This document shows positions 2,497 to 21,512 of a DNA stretch of 43,765 nucleotides, in pieces. The position numbers and the translations under genes are program-made. Each line of letters starts with the position of its first letter. Within the stretch, counting starts at the first letter, position 1. This stretch comes from Betaproteobacteria bacterium (lineage in GTDB: Bacteria; Pseudomonadota; Gammaproteobacteria; Burkholderiales; SG8-39): assembly GCA_005883675.1 (NCBI GenBank), contig VBCM01000095.1, positions 1 through 43,765 on the forward strand, written 5' to 3'. The notes under the pieces were generated by a model that saw only the letters and a program-made list of their open reading frames with translations, searched no databases and was not told the origin of the DNA.

Positions 2497-3459
2497 CTAG
2501 CGCACGGTCTTTACGCCCGCCTCCTGCAGGATGGCGCGCATGTGGTCGGTGAATTCGTCGTAGAACTTGGCGAGATCCGCCGCGTTCTGGTAGCCGTCCT
2601 CGAACTGGTTGTCGGCGAGGAATTTGCGCCATGACGCGGTGCGCGTAAGGCGCCGGAACAGGTCCTCCCAATAGGCGACGTTTTCGGCCGGGATTCCCGG
2701 CGGCGCAACGACGCCGCGCACCTGCGGCACCGCCGGCACGTCGAAGCCCGCTTCCTTCAGCGTCGGCACGTCCGGAAATGCCGCCAGGCGCTTTTCGCTT
2801 ACCTGTGCGAGCACGCGCATGTTGCCCGCGCGGATGTGCTCGCCGGCTTCGGCCGCCTCGATCACCATCATGTTGACGTGGCCGCCGAGGAGCGCCGCGA
2901 TGCGCTCGCCGCCGCCGGGAAAGGAAATGAACGCCCAGCGCGAACTGGTCGCTTTCTGCAGGAGCTGCCGCACGACGTTGTCGCGGCTCGTCACGGAGCC
3001 GCCGGACTGCTTGAGCTGGCCGGGGTGCTCCTTCGCCGCAGCGATGAAATCGCCAAGCGCGCGGTAGGGCGAATCGGCCTTCACGGCGATGAGCGCCGGC
3101 TCGAGGACGAGCCGCGCGATAGGCGTCAAGTCGCGCAGCGTCACTCTTGCCTCGGTGCTGGTGAGGGGACTGGTGAGCCATACGCCGGTGAAAAAGCCGA
3201 TGGTGTGCGGCTCGCCCGCGCGCTCGGCGAGATACGCAGCGGCGACGGCGCTGCCGCCCCCCGTCTTGTTCACGACCTGCATTCGCACCGGCAGCAGCCG
3301 CTCTTTCTCGATCATGGTCGCCACCGCGCGCGCGAGCAGGTCGCTGCCGCCGCCGGGTCCCGTGTGCACTACCACCTCGATCGGCCGCGTCGGCTTGAAC
3401 GCATACGCGGGTGCGGCTACGACGGTGAGCGCCGCGAGCGCCATGCAAAGTGTCTTCAT
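2497..3459 (-). CDS. Tripartite tricarboxylate transporter substrate-binding protein (TctC/Bug family)
   Basis: A 320-residue periplasmic binding protein. A Sec signal peptide ends near AYA (residue 20). The body shows Bug-family features: RPIEVVVHTGPGGGSD near the N-terminus, NKTGGG about residue 65, and DVPTLKEAG about residue 230. Bug proteins bind carboxylated or amide ligands and deliver them to the TctA/TctB membrane pair; the ligand cannot be predicted. The frame stays open far upstream through TctA, but the ATG at 3459 is chosen because it begins the signal peptide and overlaps the TctA stop by an ATGA junction. It is complete, although the TctA gene it depends on is damaged. Confidence 0.92.
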   Translation of the reverse strand: MKTLCMALAALTVVAAPAYAFKPTRPIEVVVHTGPGGGSDLLARAVATMIEKERLLPVRMQVVNKTGGGSAVAAAYLAERAGEPHTIGFFTGVWLTSPLTSTEARVTLRDLTPIARLVLEPALIAVKADSPYRALGDFIAAAKEHPGQLKQSGGSVTSRDNVVRQLLQKATSSRWAFISFPGGGERIAALLGGHVNMMVIEAAEAGEHIRAGNMRVLAQVSEKRLAAFPDVPTLKEAGFDVPAVPQVRGVVAPPGIPAENVAYWEDLFRRLTRTASWRKFLADNQFEDGYQNAADLAKFYDEFTDHMRAILQEAGVKTVR

Positions 3460-7933: not shown

Positions 7934-9247
7934 CTAATGGCTGATCGCCGGTAGCCAGGTGGCGAGCGGCGGAAAGACGATGATGAGCGCAATCAAGAGC
8001 AGCACGCAGCCGATGAAGGGCATGCCCGCAAGGTAGATGTCGCGCATCGTCGTGCCGGGCGGCGCGACGCCCTTCATGACGAAAAGCAGCAGGCCGAAGG
8101 GCGGCGTGGTGTAGCCGATCTCGAGCGCGAGCAGCATGATGAGCCCGAACCACACCAGATCGAAGCCCAGCGTCTTCGCCAGCGGAAAGAAGATCGGCGC
8201 GGTGAGCAGCATCATCGAGAGCTGGTCCATGAAGCAACCGAGAAAGAAAATGACGCCGATCATGATGAGCAGCATGCCGAGCGGCGAGAACGGGAAGCCG
8301 AGCGCCCAATTCATGAGGCCGCTGGAGGCGCCGGTGAAGGCGAGCACCTGGGCGAAGGTGGCCGAGCCGAAGATGATAAGGAATGCCATGACGGTGACGC
8401 GCAGCGAGCCTTCGAGCGACTTGAGAAACCCCTTCCAGGTCATCTCGCCATAGCAGGCGGCGAGCACGATCACGGAAAGCGCGCCGAGCGCCGCCGCCTC
8501 GGTCGGAGTGCACCAGCCGACGATCATGATGAGCACCGAGAAGACGATGATTGCCACCATCGGGATCACGTCGACGAAGACGAGCCGCCACTTCTCGCGC
8601 CGGCTCACCACGGGCGGCGGCGTCTGCGGTGCCGCCGTCGGGTCGAACACCGTCCAGCCGTAGATCAGGATGCCGTACATCAGCGCGAGCACGAAGCCCG
8701 GCACCACGCCGGCGATGAGGAGATCGCCCACATCGGTGCGCCCGAGCGTGGCGAGCAGCACGGTAAGCGCCGACGGCGGGATGATCACGGCGAGACCGCC
8801 CACGCCCATGATCGGGCCGATCGACAGGTACTTGCTGTAGCCGCGGCGGTACATCTCCGGGACCATCAGCGAGCCGAGCAGCGCGCAGGAGCCCATGCTC
8901 GAGCCCGCCGGGCCGGCGAAGGCGGTGCCGCCGATGAGCGTCACGAACGAGAGCCGCGCCGGCACGTTGCCGAGGAGCTTGTCGGCCGCGTTGAAGCAGC
9001 GCCCGGCGAGCCCGGTGTGAAAGAAAAGCTCGCCCATCAGCAGGAACATCGGGATCGGCACGAGTGCGAAGTTGGTCATCGCGCCGAAGCCGTTGTTGAT
9101 CACCTGCATGATGCCCGCGGCCCCGCCCATGAAAAGCGCCGCGGCGACGATGTTGGTGGCGAAGAACGCGATCGCCACCGGCACGCCGGTCATCATCAGG
9201 CCGACGCCCAGGCCAAAGAGGATCAGCGCCGCCCAGTACCACTGCAC
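7934..9247 (-). CDS. TRAP transporter large permease (DctM family)
   Basis: 437 residues with about a dozen hydrophobic helices, the usual DctM size. Recognisable stretches are the N-terminal GLGVGLMMTGVPVAIAF, VPIPMFLLMGELFFHTGLA, GTAFAGPAGSSMGSCALLG, IIPPSALTVLLA, WCTPTEAAALGAL and the C-terminal EIGYTTPPFGLLLFVMKG (each is a hallmark of DctM). It forms the Na+-driven channel that receives substrate from DctP. The start is a GTG at 9247, three bases after the DctQ stop. Downstream, its TAG is followed directly by the ribosome site for the SDR. The gene looks intact. Confidence 0.94.
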   Translation of the reverse strand: MQWYWAALILFGLGVGLMMTGVPVAIAFFATNIVAAALFMGGAAGIMQVINNGFGAMTNFALVPIPMFLLMGELFFHTGLAGRCFNAADKLLGNVPARLSFVTLIGGTAFAGPAGSSMGSCALLGSLMVPEMYRRGYSKYLSIGPIMGVGGLAVIIPPSALTVLLATLGRTDVGDLLIAGVVPGFVLALMYGILIYGWTVFDPTAAPQTPPPVVSRREKWRLVFVDVIPMVAIIVFSVLIMIVGWCTPTEAAALGALSVIVLAACYGEMTWKGFLKSLEGSLRVTVMAFLIIFGSATFAQVLAFTGASSGLMNWALGFPFSPLGMLLIMIGVIFFLGCFMDQLSMMLLTAPIFFPLAKTLGFDLVWFGLIMLLALEIGYTTPPFGLLLFVMKGVAPPGTTMRDIYLAGMPFIGCVLLLIALIIVFPPLATWLPAISH

Positions 9248-9250
9248 GCG

Positions 9251-9754
9251 CTAGACCTCGGGCGGACCGGCGAGGCTGCCGAGAAAATTCTCCCCGCGGA
9301 TGAGAAAGCGCAGGAACTCGATCGCCATCATGGCGAAGGACAGCGGAATAAAGCCGACCACGATCCAGCGCGGCATGTCGAGCGAGCGCACGTCCTTCTC
9401 GTTGTTGACGAAGTCTTCGAGCGTCACCACGCCGCCGTACCACGCGAGTACGGCGCAGACCGCCACGCACAGCGCGCCGATCGCGAAGCGCAGCCCCGCC
9501 TGCTGCCGGGCCGGCAAGTACATGAAGAGGATCTCGACGAAGATGTGGCCCTTCTCGCGCACCAGCCACGGCGCGCCGAGGCAGGGCACGGCGAGCAGCG
9601 CGTACTCGGTGAACGTGAAGAAGTGCGCCGAGCTCTGGTAGCCGAGGTTGCGCAGCCCGACGTCGATGCAGATCGTGACCATCATCGCCGCCATGAGAAA
9701 GCCGGCGACCCACGCCATGCCGTAGAGCACGGCGTCGTAGGTCTGCTTGATCAC
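9251..9754 (-). CDS. TRAP transporter small permease (DctQ family)
   Basis: 167 residues with four membrane helices, matching DctQ. Typical elements are the first helix WVAGFLMAAMMVTICIDVGL, the loop after it, FTEYALLAVPCLGAPWLVREKGHIFVEI (read in parts: EYALLAVPCLGAPW and REKGHIFVEI) at about residues 55-80, and the final helices with PRWIVVGFIPLSF. DctQ pairs with DctM to form the membrane complex. The frame is open upstream, but the GTG at 9754 is chosen because it overlaps the DctP stop as GTGA and begins just before the first helix. Confidence 0.9.
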   Translation of the reverse strand: MIKQTYDAVLYGMAWVAGFLMAAMMVTICIDVGLRNLGYQSSAHFFTFTEYALLAVPCLGAPWLVREKGHIFVEILFMYLPARQQAGLRFAIGALCVAVCAVLAWYGGVVTLEDFVNNEKDVRSLDMPRWIVVGFIPLSFAMMAIEFLRFLIRGENFLGSLAGPPEV

Positions 9755-10746
9755 TCCGGTGTGAAGAGCTGCACTACTTTGTCGTAGTTCTCCATGCCGG
9801 CCGCCTTCTCCATGCGCTCCTTCATGCGCGCGAGGCTCGCCGCGCGCGCGCCGGCGACGAACTTCTTCGAGGCTTGCGGCGACTGCGAGAGCGTCTTGAT
9901 GCCGCGCTTCTCGAGCTCGGTGCGCTCTTTCTTCCACAGACCCTGGAGCTCGCGCAGGCTCGCCGTCTCGTGCTCGAGGGCGGTGCGCTGCAGGATCTCG
10001 CGCGTCTTGGGCGAGAGCGCGTTCCACTTCTTGAGATTGACGAGGATCATCAGATCGGTCTCGAAGAAGTCCGGCAGGATGCGGTACTTAATGTAGCGGT
10101 CCCAGTTGAGGTCCATCAGGCCGATCTGCGTCCATGCGGTGATGTCAACCGTGCCGCGCTCGAGCGCGGTGTAGAGCTCCGAGGAATTGAGGTTGATGAC
10201 CTGCGCGCCGAGGTAATTGGTCAGAAAGGCGTTGTAGATCGGATTGCCACGCACCTTGAAGCCGCGGATGTCGATCTGGCCGTTGGCGTCGAACTTCGGC
10301 TCCTTCGTCGACCACAGGCAGAAGCGGATGCCGCTATCCACCCAGCCGAGCAGCTTCACGCCCATGCGCTTCTGGTGGATCTGGTCGAGGAGCTCGAGGC
10401 CGCCGTTCTTGCGCGCGGTCGGGCCATCCACCGAGCTCGCGCTCACGGCGTCGCATTCCGGGACCACCGCCGCGTAAAACGCGCAAGGCGTGTACACCAT
10501 GTCCACCACGCCGCTTCGCACCGCGCCCGGCTGCTCCATCATGCCGATCGCTTCCGGCCCACCGCGCACCTGGATGGTGAACACACCCTTGCCGGAATCG
10601 TTCGCCTTCTTCACGAACTCGAGAAAGCTGCGCGAATAGATCAGCGACGCCGGAAACACGTGCGTTGCGCTGATGGTGTCGGCGCCGAGCGCTGCCGCCG
10701 ATGCGACGAGGCCGATCGCGGCCATCATGCAGCGGATGGCTTTCAT
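9751..10746 (-). CDS. TRAP transporter substrate-binding protein (DctP family)
   Basis: 331 residues with a Sec signal peptide ending near ALGA (about residue 22). The mature part shows DctP features: an N-terminal ISATHVFPAS segment, GGPEAIGMMEQPGAVRSGVVDM (seen as GGPEAIGMMEQPGAV) about residue 65, the GFKVRGNPIYNAFLTNYLGA segment containing the conserved ligand-binding Arg about residue 165, and ELYTALERGTVDI about residue 195. It binds a carboxylated substrate in the periplasm. The ATG at 10746 has GGAGGAGG four bases upstream, so it is the first gene of the leftward operon; the frame extends nine codons further but without need. Confidence 0.93.
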   Translation of the reverse strand: MKAIRCMMAAIGLVASAAALGADTISATHVFPASLIYSRSFLEFVKKANDSGKGVFTIQVRGGPEAIGMMEQPGAVRSGVVDMVYTPCAFYAAVVPECDAVSASSVDGPTARKNGGLELLDQIHQKRMGVKLLGWVDSGIRFCLWSTKEPKFDANGQIDIRGFKVRGNPIYNAFLTNYLGAQVINLNSSELYTALERGTVDITAWTQIGLMDLNWDRYIKYRILPDFFETDLMILVNLKKWNALSPKTREILQRTALEHETASLRELQGLWKKERTELEKRGIKTLSQSPQASKKFVAGARAASLARMKERMEKAAGMENYDKVVQLFTPE

Positions 10747-10797
10747 GTTCCTCCTCCGGTTGTCTGCCAAGCGCGCGGCATCTTACCATCTACGCCG
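10747..10797. promoter_or_regulatory. Short divergent spacer between the two catabolic operons
   Basis: This 51-bp spacer separates the start of the leftward TRAP/Tct operon (10746) from the rightward acyl-CoA synthetase operon (10798). It holds the GGAGGAGG ribosome site of DctP. A weak candidate promoter for the rightward genes is TTGTCT at 10760 and TACCAT at 10784 with an 18-bp spacer, which would make that transcript almost leaderless. No clear operator palindrome is visible. The compact arrangement suggests shared control, but the elements could lie inside either flanking gene. Confidence 0.35.
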
Positions 10798-12264
10798 GTG
10801 ACGACGGTCTTCACGGCGTTCGAGCAAACCGCCCGCGCGCACGGCGCGAAGTCCTTCCTGCGGGTTCCGTCCGAGCAGCTCGAGCTGAGCTATGCGCAGG
10901 CGCACGAGCGCATCGCGACCATCGCGGGCATCTACCGCCGGCGCGGCTACCGGCACGGCCATCGCGTGGCGCTCAAGCTGCCGAACTGCGCCGCTTTCCT
11001 GCTGCACTTCCTCGCGCTCAACTCGCTCGGCGTTGCGGTCGTGCCGGTAAATCCCGACTACCGGCGCGCCGAGCTCGACTATGTGCTAGCGCACAGCGAG
11101 GCGGCACTGGTCGTCGACGCGGCGGCGCTCGAGCGCTTCGATCCGCCACGCGCACCGGCGCCGGGCAATGCCGACGAATGCGCGCTGCTCTATACATCCG
11201 GCACAACGGGCAAGCCGAAAGGCTGCCTGCTCAGCAACTCGTACTTTCTCGCCGTGGGCGAGCGCTACGTCAGTGAAGGCGGCCTTTGTACCTTGCGCCA
11301 TGGCGAAGAACGGCTCATCACGCCGCTGCCGCTTTTCCACATGAACGCGCTCGCGGTCTCCACGTTGGCGATGATCCTCAGCGCCGGCTGTGTGGTGCAG
11401 CTCGATCGCTTCCATCCACGCACGTGGTGGCGCCAGGTCGTGGAAAGAGACGCGACCATCGTCCACTATCTGGGCGTGATGCCGGCGATCCTCATGCAGC
11501 TCGCGCCAAGCGGCGATGATCGCGGCCATCGCGTGCGCTTCGGCTACGGTGCCAACGCCAATCCCAAGGACCATGCGCCGTTCGAGGAGCGCTTCGGCTT
11601 TCCACTCATCGAAGCGTGGGCGATGACCGAGACGGGAGGCGGCGCGCTGATCGCCGCGAGCCGCGAGCCGCGCCATGTCGGCACGCGCTGCATCGGCAAG
11701 CCGCCGCCGGGGCTCGATGTTCAGCTCGGCGAGGATTCCGAACTGCTCGTGCGCCAGACGGGCGCCGATCCGCGGCGCGGCTTCTTCTCCGGGTATCTCA
11801 AGGACGCGGCCGCCACAGCGGCCGCATGGCGCGACGGCTGGTTCCACACCGGCGACTGCGTGCGCCGCGGGCCGGACGGCAGTCTGCACTTCGTCGATCG
11901 CCTGAAGAACATCATCCGCCGCGCTGGCGAGAATATCGCGGCGCTGGAGGTTGAAGCCGCGCTCGCCGAGCACCCGGCCATCGCGCAGGTCGCGGTGGTC
12001 GCGGTGCCCGATGCGGTACGCGACGAGGAAGTCATGGCGTGCGTTGTACTCAACCCGGGCACCAGCGCGAGCCGCGACACCGCGCTCTCCGTCCAGGACT
12101 GGTGCTTCGAGCGTCTCGCCTACTTCAAGGCGCCGGGGCATGTTGCTTTCCTGGCCGCGCTGCCGGTCACGTCTACCAATAAGGTGCAGAAGGCAAAGCT
12201 CGCCGACTTCGCGCTCGAGCCGAGCCAGTCGTACGACCTGCGCGAGCGCAAACGACGTAAATGA
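10798..12264 (+). CDS. AMP-forming acyl-CoA synthetase (class I adenylate-forming enzyme)
   Basis: 488 residues. All core motifs are present: the phosphate loop YTSGTTGKPKG (about residue 131), AMTETGG (about 272), WFHTGD (about 348), and the C-terminal lysine motif NKVQKAKL (about 460), which supplies the catalytic Lys for adenylation. The enzyme would activate a carboxylic acid with ATP and CoA at the head of the rightward operon, feeding the thiolase-like protein next to it. GTG at 10798 is the first start that leaves DctP undisturbed; the frame runs on upstream antisense to DctP and is not coding there. The protein ends with a basic tail (RERKRRK). Substrate unknown; spacing to the thiolase-like gene is 7 bases. 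Confidence 0.88.
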   Translation: MTTVFTAFEQTARAHGAKSFLRVPSEQLELSYAQAHERIATIAGIYRRRGYRHGHRVALKLPNCAAFLLHFLALNSLGVAVVPVNPDYRRAELDYVLAHSEAALVVDAAALERFDPPRAPAPGNADECALLYTSGTTGKPKGCLLSNSYFLAVGERYVSEGGLCTLRHGEERLITPLPLFHMNALAVSTLAMILSAGCVVQLDRFHPRTWWRQVVERDATIVHYLGVMPAILMQLAPSGDDRGHRVRFGYGANANPKDHAPFEERFGFPLIEAWAMTETGGGALIAASREPRHVGTRCIGKPPPGLDVQLGEDSELLVRQTGADPRRGFFSGYLKDAAATAAAWRDGWFHTGDCVRRGPDGSLHFVDRLKNIIRRAGENIAALEVEAALAEHPAIAQVAVVAVPDAVRDEEVMACVVLNPGTSASRDTALSVQDWCFERLAYFKAPGHVAFLAALPVTSTNKVQKAKLADFALEPSQSYDLRERKRRK

Positions 12265-12271
12265 GGCCTCA

Positions 12272-13432
12272 ATGAGCCGGCGCGGCTACGAGGGCGTTGC
12301 GGTGGCGGTCCCGGTCACGGTGCCCTACGTGCGCTATTCGATCCGCGCCGCGCACTGGTGGCTCGCGCGGTGCCTCGCCGAGCTGCTCAAGGGCTGCGGC
12401 CTGCGCAAGGAGGACATGGACGGCTTCTCGGTCTCGAGCTTCACGCTCGCGCCGGACACGGCGATCGGCCTCACGCAGCACCTCGGTCTTTCGCCGCGCT
12501 GGCTCGATCACGTGCCGTTCGGCGGCGCGAGCGGCATCGTGCAGCTACGCCGCGCGGCGCGCGCCGTGCAGAGCGGCGATGCGGACGTCATCGCCTGCGT
12601 CGCCGGCGACACCAACCACGTCGACTCGTTTCGCCTGACGCTCGCGAACTTCAGCCAGTTCGCGCGCGATGCGGTCTACCCGTACGGCGCCGGAGGCCCG
12701 AACGCCAGCTTCGCTTTCCTCACCGCCTACTACATGCGCACCTACGGCGTGAAGCGCGAGGACTTCGGCAAGCTCTGCGTCGCACAGCGTGACAATGCGC
12801 TGCGCTTTGCGCATGCGCTCTTCAAGAAACCGCTCACGCTGGAGGAATACCTCGCCGCCCGGCCGATCGCCGAGCCGTTGCATCTCTACGATTGCGTCAT
12901 GCCGTGCGCTGGCGCGGACGGCTTCATCGTGCTCAGCGAAGAGCGCGCGAAGCGGCTCGGCATAGGCTACGCCCGGCTCCTCGGCACCATCGAGCGTCAC
13001 AACGCGTTCGCCACCGATCCGGTGCAGATGCGCGCCGGCTGGGCGCTCGATCGCGCCGATCTCTATGAGCAGGCCGGCACCGGTCCCCAGGACATGGACT
13101 TCGTGCAGACCTACGACGACTATCCGGTGATCAGCGTCATGCAGCTCGAGGATCTCGGCTTTTGCGCCAAGGGCGAAGGACCGGCGTTCATACGCCGTCA
13201 GAGCTTCACCTGGGATGGCTCCTTTCCGCTCAATACGTCCGGCGGCCAGCTCTCCGTCGGCCAGGCCGGTGCCGCAGGCGGTTCGCTCGGCCTTGTCGAA
13301 GCGCTGCGCCAGCTCACACGCGAGGCGCAGGGGCGACAGGTGAAGGATGCGAAACTCGGGCTGGTGAGCGGGTTTGGGATGATCAACTTCGACCGCGGCC
13401 TGGGCTCCGGCGCCGCAATCCTCGGATGCTAG
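12272..13432 (+). CDS. Thiolase-like protein without thiolase Cys/His (possible thiolase-fold aldolase or lyase)
   Basis: 386 residues with the two-lobed thiolase fold. Landmarks are FGGASGIVQL (about residues 83-92, where thiolases have CASG), GDADVIACVAG, YDCVMPCAGADGF (about 210) and the C-terminal NTSGGQLSVGQAGAAGG (about 322-338). The nucleophilic Cys position is Gly85, and the His of the usual GH motif is Gln331, so ordinary thiolysis is unlikely. Proteins of this type paired with a DUF35 protein include Ltp2, the sterol side-chain aldolase, which works with the DUF35 domain of ChsH2. The DUF35 gene starts inside the end of this gene (ATG 13426 before the stop at 13432), supporting a complex. 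Function as aldolase is inference; a thiolase-like carrier or Claisen enzyme remains possible. Confidence 0.85.
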   Translation: MSRRGYEGVAVAVPVTVPYVRYSIRAAHWWLARCLAELLKGCGLRKEDMDGFSVSSFTLAPDTAIGLTQHLGLSPRWLDHVPFGGASGIVQLRRAARAVQSGDADVIACVAGDTNHVDSFRLTLANFSQFARDAVYPYGAGGPNASFAFLTAYYMRTYGVKREDFGKLCVAQRDNALRFAHALFKKPLTLEEYLAARPIAEPLHLYDCVMPCAGADGFIVLSEERAKRLGIGYARLLGTIERHNAFATDPVQMRAGWALDRADLYEQAGTGPQDMDFVQTYDDYPVISVMQLEDLGFCAKGEGPAFIRRQSFTWDGSFPLNTSGGQLSVGQAGAAGGSLGLVEALRQLTREAQGRQVKDAKLGLVSGFGMINFDRGLGSGAAILGC

Positions 13433-14658
13433 AGCTACCGAAGCGCAAGAATCCGGTGCTGCGCACGCGGCTGCCGACGCTGCCGCCGGCGGCGAGGAGC
13501 CGCATTGCCCTGGGCCTCACCGCCGCCGCGGCGCTCGGGCGCTTCGAGCTGCAGCAATGCCGCGATTGCGGCACCGTGCAGTATCCGCCGCGCGAGGCGT
13601 GCCAGGGGTGCCTGTCGATCCGGCTCGAGTGGAAGCCGCAGTCGCCGGAGGCCGAGCTGCTCGCCGCGACTGTCCTGCACCATAGCAACGATCTCTTCTT
13701 CCGCGAGCGATTGCCGTGGCGACTGGGGCTCGTAAGACTCGACTGCGGCCCGACGGTGGTCGCTCATCTGCATGAACGGGTAGCACCGGCGCCAAGCCGC
13801 GTCATCGTGGCCGCGAAGCTCGATCGCGCCGGCCAGGCGGTGCTCGTGGCGCTGCCCGACAAGGAGGCGAACATGGCTGAAGACCGGCAACTGCGTGAGT
13901 TCACCTGCGATCCGAAATTTCGCAAGGTGCTCGTCACCGACGGCAAGACGGCGCTCGGTCAGGCGATCGTGAAAGCGCTGGCCGCCGCTGGCGCCGATCT
14001 CATCTGGGTGGGCTACGCCGAGCCGTGGAAGAAGTTCGCGGGCTTCGACGAGCTAAAACCGCTGCCGCAGGTGACGCTGCTCCCGCTCGATGTCACGGAC
14101 TCGAAGAACGTCCGCGAAGTCGCCGCCGAGATCGGCGGCAAGGTCGACATCCTCGTAAACAACGCCGAATACCATCGCACCTATGGCATCAGCAACCGCC
14201 CGGGCGTAGATACCGCGCGCGCCGAGATGGACGTCAACTACTTTGGCCTCTTGCGCCTCGCGCAGGAGTTCGGTCCCGCCATGCGCTCGCGCGGCGCCGA
14301 CGGGCTGGCGAGCGCGACCGCCTGGGTCAATCTGCTCTCCATATATGCACTCGCCAACTTCCCGCCGCACGGCACGTTTTCAGCATCCAAGGCAGCGGCG
14401 CACTCGCTCGCCCAGTGCTTGCGCGCCGAGCTGCGCCCGGCGGGTGTGCGCGTGATCAACGTCTTTCCCGGGCCGATCGATGACGAATGGAACCAGCTCC
14501 TGCCGCCGCCGAAGATCACGCCCGCAGCGCTGGCGAATGCCGTGGTCAAAGCGCTCCAGGAAGGCGTGGAGGACGGCTATCCCGGGGATGTCGCGCAGGA
14601 ATGGCTGGCGCGTTGGCGCGACAATCCAAAGGCACTGGAAAAGGAACTCTCGACATGA
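13426..14658 (+). CDS. DUF35 zinc-ribbon/OB-fold domain fused to an SDR domain
   Basis: One uninterrupted 410-codon frame. Residues 1-145 are a DUF35 protein: rubredoxin-like zinc ribbon with Cys45, Cys48, Cys59 and Cys62, then an OB-fold. Residues 150-410 are an SDR: degenerate cofactor loop VTDGKTALGQAI, NNAEYHRTYG, Ser305 in LLSIYAL, and FSASKAA where Phe318 replaces the catalytic Tyr four residues before Lys322. DUF35 proteins bind thiolase-fold partners; the partner gene overlaps by 7 bases. At 13861-13875 an AAGGAGG sits five bases before an in-frame ATG (residue 150), so the SDR half could also be made alone. The two halves may once have been separate genes joined by stop-codon loss. 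It may work as a scaffold or as an unusual dehydrogenase on the product of the thiolase-like protein. Confidence 0.85.
   Translation: MLELPKRKNPVLRTRLPTLPPAARSRIALGLTAAAALGRFELQQCRDCGTVQYPPREACQGCLSIRLEWKPQSPEAELLAATVLHHSNDLFFRERLPWRLGLVRLDCGPTVVAHLHERVAPAPSRVIVAAKLDRAGQAVLVALPDKEANMAEDRQLREFTCDPKFRKVLVTDGKTALGQAIVKALAAAGADLIWVGYAEPWKKFAGFDELKPLPQVTLLPLDVTDSKNVREVAAEIGGKVDILVNNAEYHRTYGISNRPGVDTARAEMDVNYFGLLRLAQEFGPAMRSRGADGLASATAWVNLLSIYALANFPPHGTFSASKAAAHSLAQCLRAELRPAGVRVINVFPGPIDDEWNQLLPPPKITPAALANAVVKALQEGVEDGYPGDVAQEWLARWRDNPKALEKELST
13861..13875 (+). promoter_or_regulatory. Internal ribosome binding site and start inside the DUF35-SDR frame
   Basis: AAGGAGG at 13861-13867 is followed after five bases by ATG at 13873, in frame, exactly at the DUF35/SDR boundary (protein begins MAEDRQLREF). 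This is one of the better ribosome sites in the window and suggests that a free SDR of about 261 residues is made besides the fusion. Confidence 0.6.
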
Positions 14659-14671
14659 CGTTTTTGCTTTG

Positions 14672-14772
14672 CCCCCCTGATAAGGGGGGTGGCGCGAAGC
14701 GCCGGGGGGTTTGCGGATGCGAAAATCAATTCCCCGCTCGCCTCCTGCTCGCTTCCCCCCTTGACAGGGGGG
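14672..14772. repeat. Intergenic hairpin repeat (REP/MITE-like), three stems
   Basis: The spacer between the DUF35-SDR gene and the cyclase contains three hairpins. The first is CCCCCC-TGATAA-GGGGGG at 14672-14689. The second is GGCGC-GAA-GCGCC at 14691-14703, followed by a G run. The third is CCCCCC-TTGACA-GGGGGG at 14755-14772. The outer two stems are near copies of each other, bracketing about 50 bases. This layout is typical of dispersed intergenic palindromes in betaproteobacteria. It could also act as a transcription attenuator or mRNA stabiliser between two parts of the operon. Only one copy is in this window, so dispersal is inferred. Confidence 0.65.
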
Positions 14773-14779
14773 CGACCCC

Positions 14780-15562
14780 GTGAGCGTCCTCGCACAACTG
14801 GCCACCGGCCTCGCCGCCGGCAAGATCAGGGTCGTCGATCTCACCGAGACCTTGTCCCCAGAGTTTCCGCATATCTCGCTACCGCCCGAGATGGGCCAGG
14901 CGTGGCCGTTTCGTATCGAGGAGGTGTCGCACTACGACGAGCGCGGCCCGGCCTGGTACTGGAACAACTTCTCCTGCGGCGAGCACACCGGGACGCACTT
15001 CGACGCGCCGATCCACTGGGTGTCGGGCAAGGACCTGCCGCAGAACGCCACCGATAGCATTGCGCCCGAGCGCTTCATCGGCCCGGCATTTGTCATCGAC
15101 TGCAGCAAGCAGGCGGCCGCCGATCCGGATTTCCTGCTGACGAAGCCGTTCCTCCTTGACTGGGAGAAGCGCCATGCCCGCATCGCTGCGCGCTCCTGGG
15201 TGCTGATGCGTACCGACTGGTCGAAGAAAAGCGGCGATGCCGTCGCCTACCAGAACTACGACGAGACCGGGCAGCACACGCCCGGGCCGGATACCGACGC
15301 GGTGCGTTTCCTCGTTGAAGAGCGCGACATCCTCGGCTTCGGCACCGAGTCGATCGGCACCGACGCGGGCCAGGCGTATCACCTGCGGCCGCCCTACCCT
15401 TGCCACTATTACATGCACGGCGCCGGCCGCTACGGGCTCCAGTGCCTGCGCAACCTCGACCAGCTTCCGCCCACCGGCGCGCTCGTCGTGGCCGCGCCGC
15501 TCAAGATCCGCAACGGCAGCGGCAGCCCGCTGCGCGTGCTCGCCCTCGTGGAGTCGCGATGA
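14780..15562 (+). CDS. Cyclase-family metal hydrolase (kynurenine formamidase-like)
   Basis: 260 residues. The family motif HTGTHFDAPIHW (about residues 71-82), with its metal-binding His and Asp residues, is intact; HLRPPYPCHYYMHGAGRYGLQ (HLRPPYPCHYYMHGAG shown) near residue 205 is the conserved C-terminal part. Members hydrolyse formamides, cyclic imides, lactones or related amide bonds in aromatic and heterocycle catabolism. DLTETLSPEFP near the start is the usual N-terminal motif. The GTG at 14780 lies 8 bases after the hairpin repeat and begins the tightly overlapping series that runs to 18058. Its stop overlaps the next gene as ATGA. It is a candidate amide or ring-opening step. Confidence 0.9.
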   Translation: MSVLAQLATGLAAGKIRVVDLTETLSPEFPHISLPPEMGQAWPFRIEEVSHYDERGPAWYWNNFSCGEHTGTHFDAPIHWVSGKDLPQNATDSIAPERFIGPAFVIDCSKQAAADPDFLLTKPFLLDWEKRHARIAARSWVLMRTDWSKKSGDAVAYQNYDETGQHTPGPDTDAVRFLVEERDILGFGTESIGTDAGQAYHLRPPYPCHYYMHGAGRYGLQCLRNLDQLPPTGALVVAAPLKIRNGSGSPLRVLALVESR

Positions 15563-16335
15563 GCAAGTACAAGATCTGGTTCCAGGGCGCCACCGACCGC
15601 GTCCACATGGCGCCTTACATCAGCAAGGTGGAAGCGCACCTGAAGAGCGTCCTCGACCCGGATTTCTCGGCCACGTTCCACACCACCACCCCGCCTGCCA
15701 CCACGACGCATGCGATCACCGAATATCGCATCGGTCGCAACCTGATCAAGCACGCGGTGGAAGCCGAGCGCCAAGGCTACGCGGCGATGGCGATCACGCA
15801 TTTCCAGGACGCCGGCCTGGCGGAAGTGAAATCGGTGGTTGATATCCCGGTGCTCGGCCTCGGCGAAACGACCCTCATGCATGCGTGCACGCTTGGCCGC
15901 AAACTGGGCCTCGTCACCATCAACCCGGTTTTCATACCGTGGCACGAGGACCAAGTGATCCGCTACGGGTTGCAAAGCCGGGTCGTGGGCGTGCGCGCGG
16001 TGCAGGCGACGGTCAAGGACTTCATCGATTCGTTCGCGAGCGATGAGGCGAAGGGCGTGCTCGCGCCGAAATGGGAGCACGAATGCCGCATCCTGCTCGA
16101 CGCCGGCGCCGACGTCATCGTGCCGGCGGGCGGCTTGCCGATGATGCTCTTCGGCGCCCAGCGCGGCGCAAACATCGATGGCGCGCCGATCGTCAACGGC
16201 ATCACGCTGATCGCGAAGACCGCCGAGCTCGCCATCCGGCTGCGCGAGCAGGCGGGCATGTTCACGGTGAGCCGGCGCTCGAACTACGTCAAGCCGCCGG
16301 AGAAAGCGCTACGCGAATTCCTCGAGCAGGGATGA
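15559..16335 (+). CDS. Asp/Glu/hydantoin racemase-superfamily protein lacking both catalytic Cys
   Basis: 258 residues with the two-domain racemase fold. Segments line up with the superfamily: AITHFQDAGLAEVKSVVDIPVLGLGE (AITHFQDAGL at 78-87) and ADVIVPAGGLPMML (about 184-197). In hydantoin, aspartate and glutamate racemases each of these segments carries a Cys acid/base; here the sites read Thr80-His81 and Pro189-Ala190. Only two Cys are present elsewhere (HACTLGR, HECRILL). Maleate isomerase and arylmalonate decarboxylase belong to the same superfamily but also use Cys. The protein therefore probably uses other chemistry, perhaps a His, or binds without turnover. ATGA overlaps join it to the cyclase before it and the aconitase-type subunit after it, so it most likely serves the same pathway. 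Confidence 0.85.
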   Translation: MSKYKIWFQGATDRVHMAPYISKVEAHLKSVLDPDFSATFHTTTPPATTTHAITEYRIGRNLIKHAVEAERQGYAAMAITHFQDAGLAEVKSVVDIPVLGLGETTLMHACTLGRKLGLVTINPVFIPWHEDQVIRYGLQSRVVGVRAVQATVKDFIDSFASDEAKGVLAPKWEHECRILLDAGADVIVPAGGLPMMLFGAQRGANIDGAPIVNGITLIAKTAELAIRLREQAGMFTVSRRSNYVKPPEKALREFLEQG

Positions 16336-17570
16336 AGCAGACGCTTGCCCAGAAGGTAGTTGCACGCGCCGCCGGGCGCAGCACCGTCACGCCGGGCGAA
16401 ATCGTCACCTGCAAGGTCGATCTGGCGATGGTGCACGACTCGAGCGGTCCGCGGCGCCTGAAGCCGATGCTCGAGCGCCTCGGCGCCAAGGTCTGGGATC
16501 CGACGAAGGTGGTCGTCATCACCGATCACTATCTGCCGGAGTACGACGACGAGAGCCGCAAGATCCTGCGCATTGCCCGCGACTGGGTACGCGAAGCGGG
16601 CATCGATAATTTCTACGATGCGCAAGGCATCTGCCACGTGGTGCTGCCCGAGCGCGGGCACCTGCGGCCCGGCATGTTCGCGGTGGGCGGCGACAGCCAT
16701 TCGCCCACCGGCGGCGCCTTTGCCGCCTACATGTTCGGCGTCGGCGCCACCGAGATGCTCGGCGTCATGGTTACGGGCGAGATCTGGCTCAAGGTGCCGC
16801 ATACCATCGCAATCGAGTTCGACGGCGCCTTTGCGCCTGGCGTGTCGGCGAAGGACGTGATGCTCTTCCTCATCGCCCGCTACGGCATGGACGGCGGCCA
16901 ATACCAGGCGGTCGAATATCGCGGCCCGGCGATCCGCAAGCTGCCGATGCAGGAGCGCATGACTTTGTGCAACATGACCGCGGAGCTCGGCGGCCAGACC
17001 GGGCTCATCGCTTCCGACGACGTAACGCGCGACTATCTGCAGCGCGAGGTTGAGATCTGGGATAGCGACGCCGATGCGCCGCTGTTAGCACACCATCGGT
17101 TCCGGGCCGATGAACTGCCGCCGCAGGTGGCCGCGCCGCACAGCCCAGCGAATACGCGACCGGTGAGCGACTTCGACCAGCGCATCGACCTCGCCTACAT
17201 CGGCGCGTGCACCGGCGCGAAGCTCGCCGACCTGCGCATGGCCGCAGCCGTGCTACGCGGGCGCAAAGCGCGCGCGAAGTTGATCGTCGCACCGGCAAGC
17301 CTGCGCGATCAGCAAACCGCCGAGGGCGAGGGCACGCTGCAGGTGCTGCTCGACGCGGGCGCAGAGCTCCTCGCCAATTCCTGTGGCATGTGCGCGGGCT
17401 ATGGGCAGCATCAGCTCGGTGAGAATACGGTGGCGATCTCCACCACCGCCCGCAATTTCAAGGGCCGCATGGGCGCGGCATCGGCGCAGGTGTACCTCGC
17501 CTCGCCCTATACCGTGGCAGCATCCGCGGTCACCGGGCGCATCACCGATCCACGCGGGATGCTGCAATGA
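16332..17570 (+). CDS. Aconitase-family dehydratase, large subunit (LeuC/HacA/DmdA type)
   Basis: 412 residues, the shorter type II length seen in isopropylmalate isomerase-like, homoaconitase-like and dimethylmaleate or maleate hydratase enzymes. The 4Fe-4S ligands are visible as Cys in GACTGAKLADL (about residue 296) and the pair in NSCGMCAGYG (about 352-355). GGDSHSPTGGAF (about 115), GATEMLGVMVTGEIW and NFKGRMGA are further family motifs. The enzyme adds or removes water from a di- or tricarboxylic acid. It is not in a leucine gene cluster; neighbours (cyclase, racemase-like, hydantoinase-like) suggest a catabolic substrate such as a substituted maleate or malate, which is inference. ATGA overlaps on both sides couple it to the racemase-like gene and to its small subunit. 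Confidence 0.93.
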   Translation: MKQTLAQKVVARAAGRSTVTPGEIVTCKVDLAMVHDSSGPRRLKPMLERLGAKVWDPTKVVVITDHYLPEYDDESRKILRIARDWVREAGIDNFYDAQGICHVVLPERGHLRPGMFAVGGDSHSPTGGAFAAYMFGVGATEMLGVMVTGEIWLKVPHTIAIEFDGAFAPGVSAKDVMLFLIARYGMDGGQYQAVEYRGPAIRKLPMQERMTLCNMTAELGGQTGLIASDDVTRDYLQREVEIWDSDADAPLLAHHRFRADELPPQVAAPHSPANTRPVSDFDQRIDLAYIGACTGAKLADLRMAAAVLRGRKARAKLIVAPASLRDQQTAEGEGTLQVLLDAGAELLANSCGMCAGYGQHQLGENTVAISTTARNFKGRMGAASAQVYLASPYTVAASAVTGRITDPRGMLQ

Positions 17571-18058
17571 AGGCCTGGGTGTTCGGCGACAACGTCGACA
17601 CGGACGTGATCGCGCCCGGCCGCTACATGAAGTACGGCATCGACGAGATCGCCCGCCACTGCATGGAGGCGCTGGAGCCGGCCTTCGCCGCGAGCGTGCG
17701 CAAAGGCGATGTCGTCGTCGCCGGCCGCAATTTCGGCGCCGGTTCGTCGCGCGAACAGGCGCCCGAGGCGCTCAAGCACCTCGGCGTCGCCGCGCTCATC
17801 GCCGAATCGTATGCGGGCCTCTTCTACCGCAATGCGATCAATCTCGGCCTGCCGGCGCTCGTCTGCGCGCAGGCGAAGCGCATTCGGGCCGGCGACCACA
17901 TCGCCGTGGACCTCGATGCGGGCCGCATCGACAACCGCACGAGCGGCGAGACGCTTGCCGCGGAACCGGTGCCGGCGTTCCTCCTGCAAATCGTGCGAGA
18001 CGGCGGCCTGCTCGCGCATCTGGAAAAGCGCTTGCGAGGCGAGCGCGCTTCGGCGTAA
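17567..18058 (+). CDS. Aconitase-family dehydratase, small subunit (LeuD type)
   Basis: 163 residues, normal for the small swivelling-domain subunit. It opens with FGDNVDTDVIAPGRYMKYG, matching the family GDxxNTDxIxPGRY motif; RNFGAGSSREQAPEAL (about residues 52-67) contains the Ser-Arg substrate-binding loop, and LFYRNAINLGLP is the later conserved segment. In this family the loop after PGRY helps fix substrate choice; here it reads YMKY, unlike loops I know from leucine or lysine biosynthesis, so the substrate is probably different. It overlaps the large subunit gene by ATGA and is followed after 13 bases by the amidohydrolase. Confidence 0.92.
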   Translation: MKAWVFGDNVDTDVIAPGRYMKYGIDEIARHCMEALEPAFAASVRKGDVVVAGRNFGAGSSREQAPEALKHLGVAALIAESYAGLFYRNAINLGLPALVCAQAKRIRAGDHIAVDLDAGRIDNRTSGETLAAEPVPAFLLQIVRDGGLLAHLEKRLRGERASA

Positions 18059-18071
18059 AACGGCGGCGGCG

Positions 18072-19532
18072 ATGGCGTACGACCTCCTCATCAAGAACGT
18101 GCGCGTCGTGCGCCCCGGCGAGCGCGCGCCGCGCGAGGCCGATATCGCGATCAGCGGCGAGAAGTTCGCGCGCATTGCGCCGAACCTCGGCGCGGACGCG
18201 GCGACTGTTTATGACGGCAAGGGCCGACTCGCTTTTCCCGGCGTGGTCGATGCGCACATGCACACCGGCATCTACGCGCCGCTGGCAGAGGATGCGGTAA
18301 GCGAGAGCCGCGCGGCGGCGCAGGGCGGCGTGACCGCCAGCCTGAACTACTTTCGTACCGGCCAGTACTACCTGAACAAGGGCGGGTCGTACCTCGATTT
18401 CTTTCCGGAGGTGCTGCGGCTTTCGCAAGGACGCTTCCACGTCGACTACGGCTACCACCTCGCGCCGATGGATGCGACGCACATCGGCGAGATTGCGCAG
18501 CTCATCGAGCGCCACGGCGTCGCCTCGTACAAGATCTTCATGTTCTATGGCTCGCACGGGCTGCACGGACGCTCCGACAGCCAGCGCGAGTTCCTGATGA
18601 TCGGGCCGGAAGACCGCTACGACTATGCGCACTTCGAATTCGTCATGCGCGGCGTAGCGGCGGCGCGCGAGCGCTTTCCCGACAAGGCGCAACAAATCTC
18701 GCTGTCGCTCCATTGCGAGACCGCCGAGATCATGACCGCGTACACCAAGATGGTGGAGACGGAAGGCAAACTCCAAGGCCTGGCGGCCTACCACGCAGCG
18801 CGGCCACCGCATTCGGAGGGCCTCGCGGTCTTCATCGCGTCCTATCTCGCGAACGAAGCCGCGCTGCCGACCATCAACCTGCTGCACCTCTCCTCGCGCA
18901 AGGCGCTCGAGGCGGCGCTGCAGATGCAGCAGGTCTTTCCGCACATCGATTTCCGCCGCGAGGTGACGATCGGTCACCTGATGCTCGATGTGAACTCGCG
19001 CGCCGGCGTGCTCGCAAAGGTGAATCCACCGATCCGGCCGCGCGAGGACGTCGAATACCTATGGCAACAGCTCCTCGCGGGCAAAATCGACTGGGTGGTG
19101 AGCGACCACGCCTGCTGCCGCCACGAGACCAAGGCGGCGAAGAACGCGCTGGGCAACGTATGGCTTGCGAAGTCAGGCTTCGGCGGCACGGAGTACCTGC
19201 TGCCGGGGCTCGTCTCCGAAGGGGCAAAGCGCGGCCTTTCCTATAGCCGCATCGCCGAGCTCACCAGCCGCAATCCGGCGCGGCGTTTTGGGCTCAACAG
19301 CAAGGGCGACATCGCCGAAGGCCTGGATGCCGACGTGGTGCTCGTCGACCCGAAGGAGAGCTGGACGATCCGCGCGGCCGATTCGGAATCGACGCAGGGC
19401 TATACGCCGTTCGAAGGCATCGAGCTCGGTGCGCGGGTAAAGGCCACTTTCCTGCGCGGCGCGCTCGTCTGCGAGAACGGCAACGTGCGCAGCGCGCCGC
19501 GTGGCAAATACCTGCACCGGCCTACCGCATGA
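18072..19532 (+). CDS. Hydantoinase/dihydropyrimidinase-type amidohydrolase
   Basis: 486 residues, the normal length for this family. All binuclear metal ligands of cyclic-amidohydrolases can be seen: DAHMHTG (HxH, about residue 61), the Lys of SYKIFMFYG (about 156, normally carboxylated), His of LSLHCET (about 216), His of LLHLSS (about 274) and Asp of VVSDHACC (about 345). The family opens cyclic amides such as hydantoins, dihydropyrimidines, dihydroorotate or allantoin. With a cyclase-type amidase, a racemase-like protein and a molybdenum hydroxylase nearby, cleavage of an N-heterocycle after hydroxylation is a reasonable inference. It ends in an ATGA overlap with the cysteine-synthase-like gene. 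Confidence 0.9.
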   Translation: MAYDLLIKNVRVVRPGERAPREADIAISGEKFARIAPNLGADAATVYDGKGRLAFPGVVDAHMHTGIYAPLAEDAVSESRAAAQGGVTASLNYFRTGQYYLNKGGSYLDFFPEVLRLSQGRFHVDYGYHLAPMDATHIGEIAQLIERHGVASYKIFMFYGSHGLHGRSDSQREFLMIGPEDRYDYAHFEFVMRGVAAARERFPDKAQQISLSLHCETAEIMTAYTKMVETEGKLQGLAAYHAARPPHSEGLAVFIASYLANEAALPTINLLHLSSRKALEAALQMQQVFPHIDFRREVTIGHLMLDVNSRAGVLAKVNPPIRPREDVEYLWQQLLAGKIDWVVSDHACCRHETKAAKNALGNVWLAKSGFGGTEYLLPGLVSEGAKRGLSYSRIAELTSRNPARRFGLNSKGDIAEGLDADVVLVDPKESWTIRAADSESTQGYTPFEGIELGARVKATFLRGALVCENGNVRSAPRGKYLHRPTA

Positions 19533-20512
19533 GGGATGTGCGCGACGGCCTCATCGGCACCATCGGCAACACGCCGCTCATCCGCCTGCGCGGGGCTTCG
19601 GAGCTCACCGGCTGCGACATCCTCGGCAAGGCCGAATTCCTGAATCCGGGCGGCTCGGTCAAGGATCGCGCCGGGCTGTACCTGATTCTCGATGCCGAGC
19701 AGCGCGGCGTACTGAAGCCCGGTGGCCTCATCGTCGAAGGCACCGCCGGCAACACCGGCATCGGGCTCGCGCTCGTCGGTAACGCGCGTGGTTACCGTAC
19801 GCTCATCGTCATCCCGGACACGCAAAGCCAGGAGAAGAAGGACATGCTGCGGCTTTGCGGCGCCGAGCTGCGCGAGGTGCCGGCGGTGCCGTACAAGGAT
19901 CCCAACAACTATGTCCACGTGAGTGAACGGCTGGCAAAGGAGATGGGCGCGTTCTGGGCCAACCAGTGGGACAACATGGCGAACGCCGAAGGCCACTATC
20001 GCAGCACCGGGCCGGAAATCTGGCAGCAGACGGGCGGTCGCGTCGACGGCTTCACCTGCGCCATCGGCACGGGCGGCACGCTCGGCGGCGTGAGTCGCTA
20101 TCTCAAGGAGAAGAACCCGAAGGTGCGCATCGCCGCCGCCGATCCGCTGGGCGCCTCGATGTACAGCTGGTTCAAGCGTGGCGAGCTCAAGGCCGAAGGC
20201 TCATCAATCACCGAAGGCATCGGCCTCGGCCGCGTGACGAAGAACGTCGCCACCGCGATCGTCGATGACGCGTACCAGATTCCAGACAGCGAGGCGCTGC
20301 CGCTCATCTTCGTGCTGGCGAAGCGCGAAGGCCTGATCCTCGGCGGCTCGAGCGGCATCAACGTCGCGGGCGCGATCCGCCTCGCGCGCGATCTCGGTCC
20401 CGGGCACACGGTGGTAACCATCCTCGCCGACTCCGGAACGCGCTACCAGTCGAAGCTCTTCAACCGCGCGTTTCTCGAGCAAAAAGGGCTGCCGGTCCCC
20501 GACTGGCTCTAG
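19529..20512 (+). CDS. PLP-dependent cysteine synthase-family protein
   Basis: 327 residues of fold type II. The PLP lysine is in NPGGSVKDRAG (about residue 47). The substrate loop reads EGTAGNTGIGLA (about 71-82), with Ala where CysK commonly has Ser. The phosphate cup is GTGGTLGGVSRYLKE (about 179), and GGSSGINVAGA and DSGTRYQSK complete the C-terminal lobe. The core reaction of the family is beta-replacement, forming cysteine from an acetylserine, but beta-elimination relatives exist. It overlaps the amidohydrolase gene by ATGA and is the last gene of the rightward series. Placement beside catabolic genes may point to a non-biosynthetic role. It runs towards DUF1330 with 21 bases between their ends. 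Confidence 0.9.
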   Translation: MRDVRDGLIGTIGNTPLIRLRGASELTGCDILGKAEFLNPGGSVKDRAGLYLILDAEQRGVLKPGGLIVEGTAGNTGIGLALVGNARGYRTLIVIPDTQSQEKKDMLRLCGAELREVPAVPYKDPNNYVHVSERLAKEMGAFWANQWDNMANAEGHYRSTGPEIWQQTGGRVDGFTCAIGTGGTLGGVSRYLKEKNPKVRIAAADPLGASMYSWFKRGELKAEGSSITEGIGLGRVTKNVATAIVDDAYQIPDSEALPLIFVLAKREGLILGGSSGINVAGAIRLARDLGPGHTVVTILADSGTRYQSKLFNRAFLEQKGLPVPDWL

Positions 20513-20850: not shown

Positions 20851-21512
20851 ATGGATCTCGGCTTGAAGGGTAAATCAGTCCTCGTCACCGGTGGGTCGAA
20901 AGGCATTGGCTTGGCGTGCGCAAAGGCGTTTGCGGCGGAAGGCTGCCTGCTGCATCTCGCCGCGCGCGACAAGGACCGGCTTGCGCAAGCCAGCTGGCGC
21001 GCGACTGCGCGGAGGTGGACATCCTGGTGAACAACGCCGGCGACATCCCCGGGGGCACTATCGAGACGCTCGACGAGGCGAAATGGCGCCACGCCTGGGA
21101 GCTCAAGGTCTACGGCTTCATCAACCTCACGCGCGAGCTTTACGCGCGCATGAAAGCGCGCAAGAGCGGCATCATCGTCAACGTCATCGGCATGGCGGGC
21201 GAGACGCATCCATTCGAGTACATCTGCGGTGCGACCGCCAACGCGGGGCTCGCGGCCTTCACTAAGGCGATGGGCAAAGGCTCGCGCGAGCACGGTGTGC
21301 GCGTAGTGGGCGTGCATCCGCCCTCGACGCGCACCGACCGCATCATCACGCTGATGAAGACGGCGGCGAAAGCGAAATGGGGCGACGAGAGCCGCTATGA
21401 GGAGCTGATGGGCAGCGTGATCGAGCCCGAGCAGGTCGGCGACACGGTGTGCTTCCTCGCCTCGCCGCGAGCGGGCCAGCTCTCGGGCGTGGTGCTGAAT
21501 ATGGGCGCTTAA
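20851..21512 (+). pseudogene. SDR-family oxidoreductase, broken by an internal out-of-frame deletion
   Basis: From the ATG at 20851 (AAGGA eight bases upstream) the frame encodes a normal SDR N-terminus: KSVLVTGGSKGIGLACAKAF and LHLAARDKDRLAQA. It then runs into a stop near 21030. In another frame, after about 20985-21000, the protein resumes as QLARDCAEVDILVNNAGDIP and continues to the stop at 21512. Roughly 30-40 residues (the beta3-alphaC region) that normally separate these blocks are absent. The remaining catalytic region reads YICGATANAGL, with neither Tyr nor Lys in the YxxxK positions, as in some divergent SDR clades. Its stop overlaps the convergent LivM stop in a shared TTAA. As read, no working product is expected. 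Confidence 0.83.

Follow-up and report, generated by a model that had tools for sequence, protein, structure and literature searches.

Two thiolase-fold aldolases that work with a DUF35 protein are the closest described systems for the genes considered here: the bile-acid aldolase Sal–Shy(DUF35) of Comamonas testosteroni (its Sal hereafter CtSal; PDB 9myr) and the sterol aldolase Ltp2–ChsH2(DUF35) (PDB 6ok1). A further point of reference is the iad locus for auxin degradation in Variovorax. According to the accessible part of a 2025 preprint (PMC12633357), deletion of iadF, iadG, iadH or iadI leads in each case to a build-up of C10H9NO4 (dioxindole-3-acetate) and to less anthranilate, and the products of iadF, iadG and iadH are assigned from annotation as acyl-CoA synthase, ketothiolase and alcohol dehydrogenase. 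In Bradyrhizobium, auxin breakdown is stated to pass through isatin (available text of PMC6117287), and purified Iad proteins showed no marked thermal shift in auxin binding except for IadK2, as stated in a legend of PMC10374108. The literature search, which left most subscription journals and supplements outside its reach, returned no assayed enzyme for removal of the acetyl side chain on the isatin route of auxin breakdown. The present analysis concerns a stretch of 43,765 nucleotides from a Betaproteobacteria bacterium (GCA_005883675.1, contig VBCM01000095.1; referred to as the window), in which two overlapping forward-strand genes encode a thiolase-like protein resembling IadG (12272-13432) and a DUF35 protein fused to a short-chain dehydrogenase/reductase (SDR) domain, resembling IadH (13426-14658). 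With fairly high confidence, the first is proposed to be a retro-aldolase that would convert dioxindole-3-acetyl-CoA to isatin and acetyl-CoA, and the second its DUF35 partner with a degenerate, structural SDR domain.

Fold and active site of the thiolase-like protein

The gene at 12272-13432 is an open reading frame for a protein of 386 amino acids (P0001), in which Thiolase_C_1 is the sole Pfam domain. The AlphaFold2 model has a mean predicted local distance difference test score (pLDDT) of 86.7, with values below 50 only at residues 117-142 and 372-375, and the thiolase fold is complete in this model. The closest fold in the PDB is CtSal (9myr), with Z 48.0 and a root-mean-square deviation of 2.6 over 365 residues. 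SCP2-like thiolases, Ltp2 and their kin follow at Z 40-45, including the SCP2-type thiolases 6hsp, 6hrv and 3zbk at 42.8-43.5, and classical thiolases lie at about 34. Of 71 listed loci, 59 entered one structure alignment and 48 the other, each time together with the window.

Conservation of the active site was assessed in the best 80 of 463 relatives listed, taken from named genomes, which with the window give 81 rows. These loci were scanned with the peptide patterns AARA[VI]Q[CAS]GD and GGQLS[VA]GQA, so that conservation inside the two pattern stretches, including Gln326 and Gln331, partly reflects selection of the sample; Gly85 and the YDDY motif lie outside both. Gly85 (codon 12524-12526), where thiolases carry their nucleophilic Cys, and Gln331, at the position of the His of the GHP motif (Gln326-Gln331 codons, 13247-13264), are present in all 81 rows, Gln331 with the qualification that it sits in a search pattern. 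The motif Y281-D282-D283-Y284 (codons 13112-13123) is likewise found in 81/81 rows and is specific to the clade. Where Cys thiolases have GHP, the thiolase-like protein has GQA.

A residue survey of the superfamily, with 31 rows in which the window occurs twice (as P0001 and as L129), places these positions in a wider frame. The six Cys-type rows carry HD[CA][FY] together with GHP, the single Ser row carries HDAF, and all 24 Gly-type rows carry YDxx. YDDY occurs in 11 of the 31 rows, namely the window (twice) and nine relatives, and in none of the other 20. Genome draws made without peptide patterns were also used. They comprised 47 loci, with neighbourhoods of about 1.5 kb on each side, and included the window and genomes drawn earlier; one draw gave 30 loci among more matches listed. 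Gly85 was found in all 47 (one being the window). The 20 best of these loci (at least 397 bits, again with the window as one) are all YDDY, three at 262-291 bits are YDDF, and the other 24 are YDCY, YDCF or YDAF. A DUF35 match is present in 43 of the 47. Of the 20 YDDY loci, 18 have DUF35 fused to an SDR homologous to that of the window; the other 27 loci gave no such SDR. The three YDDF loci (L167, L168 and L177) have a DUF35 match and no SDR homolog within about 1.5 kb on each side; judging from their sequences, they probably form a further aldolase group.

On mapping to CtSal, Gly85 corresponds to Gly89, Tyr281 to Tyr302, Asp283 to Cys304, Gln326 to Gln347 and Gln331 to Gln352, and the whole YDDY motif to Y302-D-C304-Y305; the roles of the CtSal active-site residues are those given in the available text of PMC12329534. 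The acid Tyr344 of Ltp2 is aligned with Gln331. The protein thus shows the Sal arrangement, but with Asp in place of the essential Cys, and its distinctive residue is Asp283 in YDDY rather than Gly85 or Gln331. The idea that Gly85 and Gln331 are themselves the novelty was rejected, since members of the Sal/Ltp2 aldolase branch usually have Gly there and Sal has the Gln as well. A degraded or pseudogenised thiolase was rejected as well, since the active-site positions are kept in 81/81 rows and the ratio of nonsynonymous to synonymous substitution rates (dN/dS) of the window gene against three relatives is 0.14-0.19.

Family position agrees with the residue pattern. In a maximum-likelihood tree of 36 rows, the 13 YDDY rows form one group (100/100), which adjoins CtSal and L013 (94/92, slightly below the star limit of the tool). 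A split with 100/100 support sets every Gly-type row apart from the Cys thiolases, and the Ser row groups with the thiolases. These data bear directly on the assignment in PMC12633357, whose available text has IadG as a ketothiolase and IadH as an alcohol dehydrogenase that together cut off the acetyl side chain in a reductive step, with C8H7NO2 as the product. This explanation has on its side the product annotations, with record labels reading 'thiolase family protein' and 'SDR family oxidoreductase', as well as the accumulation of C8H7NO2 in an iadI mutant and in a strain carrying iadCDEFGH_JK2. However, the nucleophilic Cys is present in 0 of 81 rows, HDCF is replaced by YDDY and the His of GHP by Gln, and the explanation is considered improbable.

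The DUF35-SDR partner

The second gene (13426-14658, forward strand) is an open reading frame of 410 codons (P0002) that overlaps the first by 7 nt. Pfam places zf-ChsH2 at residues 33-64, OB_ChsH2_C at 69-119 and adh_short at 167-355, and gives no MaoC match in this protein; the AlphaFold2 pLDDT is 89.9. The DUF35 part (13522-13800) contains a zinc ribbon with C45, C48, C59 and C62, four Cys found in 75/75 rows, followed by an OB fold. Its best sequence match is ChsH2(DUF35), 6ok1_B (E 0.00013), and 9myr_B is matched at E 0.0082. This half was judged by sequence, the fold-search lists of the full model being filled by the SDR domain (13915-14655), for which the closest fold is 5u4s (Z 33.5, 236 residues, 36% identity).

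Co-occurrence of the two genes is nearly complete. A DUF35 gene follows the thiolase-like gene in 79 of the 80 loci, at most about 0.34 kb past the match, and the remaining locus, L072, ends at a contig edge. DUF35 is fused to an SDR in 74 of the 80, and a sequencing error as the origin of the fusion was rejected on this count. Motif counts for the SDR cover 75 rows, that is, these 74 loci and the window; left out were L054, L101, L113 and L117, which are without a complete SDR, and L072 and L105, which are cut by contig ends. The cofactor motif TGxxxGxG occurs in none of the 75 rows, and its usual form is TDGKxxxG. Tyr and Lys of YxxxK occur together in 8 of 75, one of the 67 others having a gap there. 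The window has TDGKTALG (13936-13959) and FSASK at the two places, with Phe318 (14377-14379) at the position of the catalytic Tyr. Ser305 is kept in all 75 rows. The SDR domain is under purifying selection, with dN/dS as low as 0.04 in an Achromobacter pair; it therefore has some role and is not a useless remnant. Taken together, its sequence features are read as those of a conserved fold that has mostly lost its cofactor and catalytic motifs and may act as a structural or docking domain.

Several loci show the DUF35 part by itself. IadH stops after DUF35 in the complete loci L054 (Schauerella), L101 and L117 (Alcaligenes), which retain an isatin hydrolase at 56-59% identity, and L113 has only a short SDR remnant after DUF35. 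In L026 a free DUF35 is followed by two separate SDR genes. L027 has a distant YDDY protein with a small neighbour read as a free DUF35, in which tblastn with the window DUF35 gave no match at E 0.001. As a separate observation, the SDR of IadH in L010 and L025 (genome G202) is far more eroded, at 33% to that of the window, and retains the C-terminal tail ...EPKALEREL.

It had been suggested in the preliminary description that the SDR replaces the MaoC hydratase partner as an active enzyme and hands a CoA-linked intermediate to the aldolase. The fusion to DUF35 in 74/80 loci, the purifying selection and the invariant Ser305 speak for this idea. Against it stand the loss of TGxxxGxG in 75/75 and of YxxxK in 67/75 rows, the three complete loci whose DUF35 has no SDR attached, the short SDR remnant of L113, and the free DUF35 with separate SDR genes in L026; moreover, a hydratase or dehydrogenase step between ligase and aldolase would not be needed. 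This part of the description did not hold, and an active SDR is regarded as quite unlikely. The same motif losses, together with the retention of isatin hydrolase in L101, L117 and L054, argue against IadH as an alcohol dehydrogenase, so that neither half of the thiolase and dehydrogenase annotation in the latest iad account is supported by the residues of the two proteins. Other parts of the preliminary description fared well: Gly85 and Gln331 at the Cys and His positions of a complete thiolase fold and the overlapping DUF35-SDR gene are borne out by the alignments, the model, the match to 9myr, the 7-nt overlap and Pfam. An aldolase or lyase rather than a thiolase finds support in residues, tree and fold. 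The pairing with DUF35 holds in 79 of the 80 loci, the other being cut by its contig end, and aligned homologues keep Gly85 and Gln331 in 81/81 rows rather than a normal Cys and His.

Isatin hydrolase and the proposed reaction

Directly downstream of the pair lies a PF04199 gene (14780-15562, forward strand), IadI-like, whose product is closely homologous to the solved isatin hydrolases 5nmp (E 1.7e-115), 5nnb, 5nna and 4j0n; by homology it is an isatin hydrolase. In other loci this enzyme was recognised by at least 55% identity and at least 200 bits against the window copy. By this measure 74 of the 80 loci contain it, including every one of the 68 that extend at least 3.5 kb downstream. In 70 loci its start lies 2.0-3.5 kb beyond that of the thiolase-like gene, and in four it has a different place in the locus. 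Among stretches of about 20 kb, it is found in L024 and L029-L033. In the operon of Roseibium aggregatum, the hydrolase shares 248 of 257 residues with isatin hydrolase A (5nnb). A link to isatin can therefore be drawn for the window and its close clade. More distant YDDY proteins, among them several whose DUF35 is free, probably act on other substrates. A GC-rich repeat of 115 bases (14665-14779) separates the DUF35-SDR gene from that for isatin hydrolase. A search of its own genome gave 23 matches, one being the query and a few falling on opposite strands at a single site; the sequence has the look of a repeat element dispersed between genes.

The order of ligase, thiolase-like, DUF35-SDR and isatin hydrolase genes in the window is that of the iad locus. 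In L031 the full order is IorA, IorB, reductase, Rieske alpha, Rieske beta, ligase, thiolase-like, DUF35-SDR, isatin hydrolase and SDR, the reductase and Rieske beta being assigned via their counterparts in L025 and Roseibium. This equals the order iadA-iadJ as reconstructed from the accessible parts of PMC9613470 and PMC12633357. The Roseibium aggregatum operon carries record labels for reductase, Rieske alpha and beta, ligase, thiolase, SDR, cyclase and SDR. Achromobacter, Alcaligenes and Bradyrhizobium, genera named for iad, hold the block in the 80-locus set. The earlier proposal of a candidate new complex was consequently too strong, as the genes match the published iadG/iadH pair by order, although the chemistry has been drawn there from annotation. 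Novelty lies in how the step is assigned, in the YDDY active site and in the pseudo-SDR partner.

The reaction follows from the likely substrate. In dioxindole-3-acetyl-CoA the hydroxyl sits on the ring, at a quaternary carbon in the beta position relative to the thioester. Since this beta carbon is quaternary, no 3-ketoacyl-CoA can form and thiolysis has no substrate, a point of general chemistry that also counts against the ketothiolase assignment. Retro-aldol cleavage of the same compound gives isatin and acetyl-CoA directly and is redox-neutral. Ltp2 likewise cleaves at a tertiary hydroxyl borne by a ring.

In the proposed mechanism, the upstream acyl-CoA ligase would make dioxindole-3-acetyl-CoA (3-hydroxy-2-oxindole-3-acetyl-CoA). 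IadG would form no acyl-enzyme and would carry out a retro-aldol cleavage instead. Deprotonation of the tertiary hydroxyl at C3 by Tyr281 would be followed by cleavage of the C3-CH2 bond and release of isatin. Asp283, positioned by Gln326 and Gln331, would then protonate the enolate to give acetyl-CoA. The DUF35 domain of IadH would hold the complex together, the role played by ChsH2 towards Ltp2 and by Shy towards Sal, with the SDR acting structurally. The ketone of isatin is strongly electrophilic, and for this reason cleavage should be disfavoured as long as isatin stays; isatin hydrolase, by removing it, would pull the reaction forward. An unfavourable cleavage would explain both the adjoining isatin hydrolase and the build-up of dioxindole-3-acetate on iadI deletion. 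No paper stating this retro-aldol reaction was found within the reach of the literature search described above.

Several observations weigh against the retro-aldolase assignment. In the active site, Gln161 and Gly391, for which an oxyanion role has been proposed in CtSal, are replaced by Pro143 and Met370 in the alignment. The CtSal variants C304A, C304S and C304H are inactive according to the available text of PMC12329534, and Asp is not among the variants reported in it. In the partner, YxxxK is retained in eight of the 75 rows and also in L022, outside that set, and the SDR evolves under purifying selection (dN/dS 0.10-0.14, three relatives against the window). As regards isatin, there is no isatin hydrolase in the stretches of about 20 kb around L025 and L026. 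Five genomes with more distant YDDY proteins were searched as a whole: G202 encodes a 61% homolog at 13 kb from the pair, the best that G120 gave was one of 38%, located on another contig, and G214, G1083 (79% complete) and G1101 gave no isatin hydrolase. The match of the window pair to iadG-iadH of Variovorax is one of gene order and annotations. No homolog of IadD/IadE (Rieske) is present in the window or its contig, and a search of the window's genome for a close Rieske oxygenase gave at best 35% and 34%. The weakest point is the product. C8H7NO2, which is isatin plus two hydrogens, is reported in the iadI mutant and in the iadCDEFGH_JK2 strain, and the step is read as reductive in the accessible part of PMC12633357; such a product would be accounted for if other enzymes reduced isatin.

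The window copy, its neighbourhood and its substrate

In the window 43 genes were called, of which 30 were scanned with Pfam. The IadF-like acyl-CoA ligase (10798-12264, forward strand; Pfam and gene context) lies directly upstream of the thiolase-like gene. A divergent TRAP transporter occupies 7934-10770 on the reverse strand, with DctP recognised by Pfam (9751-10770, longest open reading frame) and DctQ (9251-9754) and DctM (7934-9247) labelled from position and size; its homologs lie beside the block in L042, L044 and L032. Downstream, an Asp/Glu/hydantoin-racemase-like gene (15559-16335, forward strand; Pfam and recurrence) is found with blocks of the TRAP type. Among the 64 loci with at least 6 kb upstream, the ligase is present in 52, Rieske alpha (IadD homolog, at least 44%) in 48 and an IorA-like gene in 34. 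Compared with the usual iad locus, the window has TRAP transporter, racemase-like and allantoinase-like genes in place of the Rieske genes. All three are shared with L044, the TRAP genes with L042, the racemase-like gene with L043, and TRAP and racemase-like genes with L032. Genome G540 holds two copies of the ligase, thiolase-like, DUF35-SDR and isatin hydrolase block: L032, with TRAP and racemase-like genes, and L033, beside Rieske genes.

With no Rieske gene in the window and only distant ones in its genome, the substrate of the window's own copy is less certain. The TRAP and racemase-like version may act on a beta-hydroxyacyl-CoA other than that from auxin, or on dioxindole-3-acetate made elsewhere and taken up. 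This alternative is possible, though somewhat doubtful. A Rieske homolog is absent not only from the window but also from 19 kb of L032 and from the upstream DNA of L042 (8 kb), L044 (4.8 kb) and L043 (1.6 kb, little DNA). The best Rieske matches in the window's genome reach 34-35%, G540 carries both the Rieske-bearing L033 and the TRAP-type L032, and distant YDDY proteins without a clear isatin hydrolase suggest that the active site is not tied to isatin. On the other hand, the hydrolase that adjoins the window pair is clearly homologous to characterised isatin hydrolases, TRAP genes also flank the Rieske-bearing copies in Roseibium and Sulfitobacter, and the oxygenase may be missing from a genome that is 92% complete. 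For this organism, an auxin derivative oxidised beforehand may be imported, or a related substrate may be used.

Further genes of the window are noted as observations in their own right. Racemase-like, LeuC/LeuD-like, allantoinase-like and cysteine-synthase-like genes lie at 15559-20512, and the racemase-like and allantoinase-like ones recur with the block in L044 (81% and 79%). At 1-2434 are a molybdopterin-binding subunit, cut by the window start, and a [2Fe-2S] subunit, possibly of a ring hydroxylase for the same substrate as the block. TctA and TctC of a tripartite tricarboxylate transporter share one frame of 805 amino acids at 2497-4914, in which TctA is matched only to 313 of 423; this is either a fusion or a frameshift. 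An SDR of 165 amino acids at 21015-21512 has family matches only from about position 72-79 and is perhaps a truncated gene or one with a late-called start.

If the retro-aldolase assignment is true, the carbon and redox balance of the pathway is closed, and the presence of isatin hydrolase in 68/68 close loci is explained. Many genome annotations would be corrected, and a third active-site design could be set beside the steroid aldolases. A broader proposal is advanced as speculation that may well prove wrong: the pair would represent a third thiolase-fold aldolase solution, with a Tyr/Asp (YDDY) active site where Sal has Tyr/Cys and Ltp2 Tyr/Tyr, a pseudo-SDR that docks isatin hydrolase or passes on reactive isatin, and an uphill retro-aldol cleavage driven by immediate hydrolysis. 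The YDDY/YDDF branch with free DUF35 (L026, L027, L167, L168, L177 and L191), with no clear isatin hydrolase where it was looked for (G120, G214 and G1101), would then comprise further retro-aldolases.

The known systems differ from the window pair in separate ways. IadG/IadH of Variovorax share its gene order and annotations in the available parts of PMC12633357 and PMC9613470; the window copy is without the Rieske genes, and the published roles of ketothiolase and alcohol dehydrogenase disagree with the residues. The SCP2-type thiolases and benzoylsuccinyl-CoA thiolase (6hsj, 7pxp) have the same fold, and the latter is listed among DUF35 complexes in the accessible text of PMC12329534. The Cys thiolases of the survey have HDCF or HDAY with GHP, in contrast to Gly, YDDY and GQA in the window. 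The closest SDR, 5u4s of Burkholderia cenocepacia (with NADP), likewise lacks the catalytic Tyr in the alignment, but it keeps TGADRGLG and is a chain of 245 amino acids without DUF35. Ltp2–ChsH2 shares the Gly at the Cys position, the Tyr of the YD motif, the DUF35 partner and a ring tertiary beta-hydroxyl in the substrate. It differs in having YDHF and Tyr344 where the window has YDDY and Gln331, in a MaoC hydratase partner and in sequence (32% identity over the stretch compared). Sal–Shy, as described in the available part of PMC12329534, has the same fold, Gly at the Cys position, the catalytic Tyr and both Gln, and forms the sister clade; as in Sal–Shy, the thiolase-like protein has a DUF35 partner, here by gene context. 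At 33% identity over the stretch compared, the window protein has Asp283 for Cys304 and does not keep Gln161 and Gly391, and its partner carries an SDR where that of Sal carries MaoC. Sal cleaves the C5 side chains of steroids, whereas the substrate of the window pair would be an oxindole.

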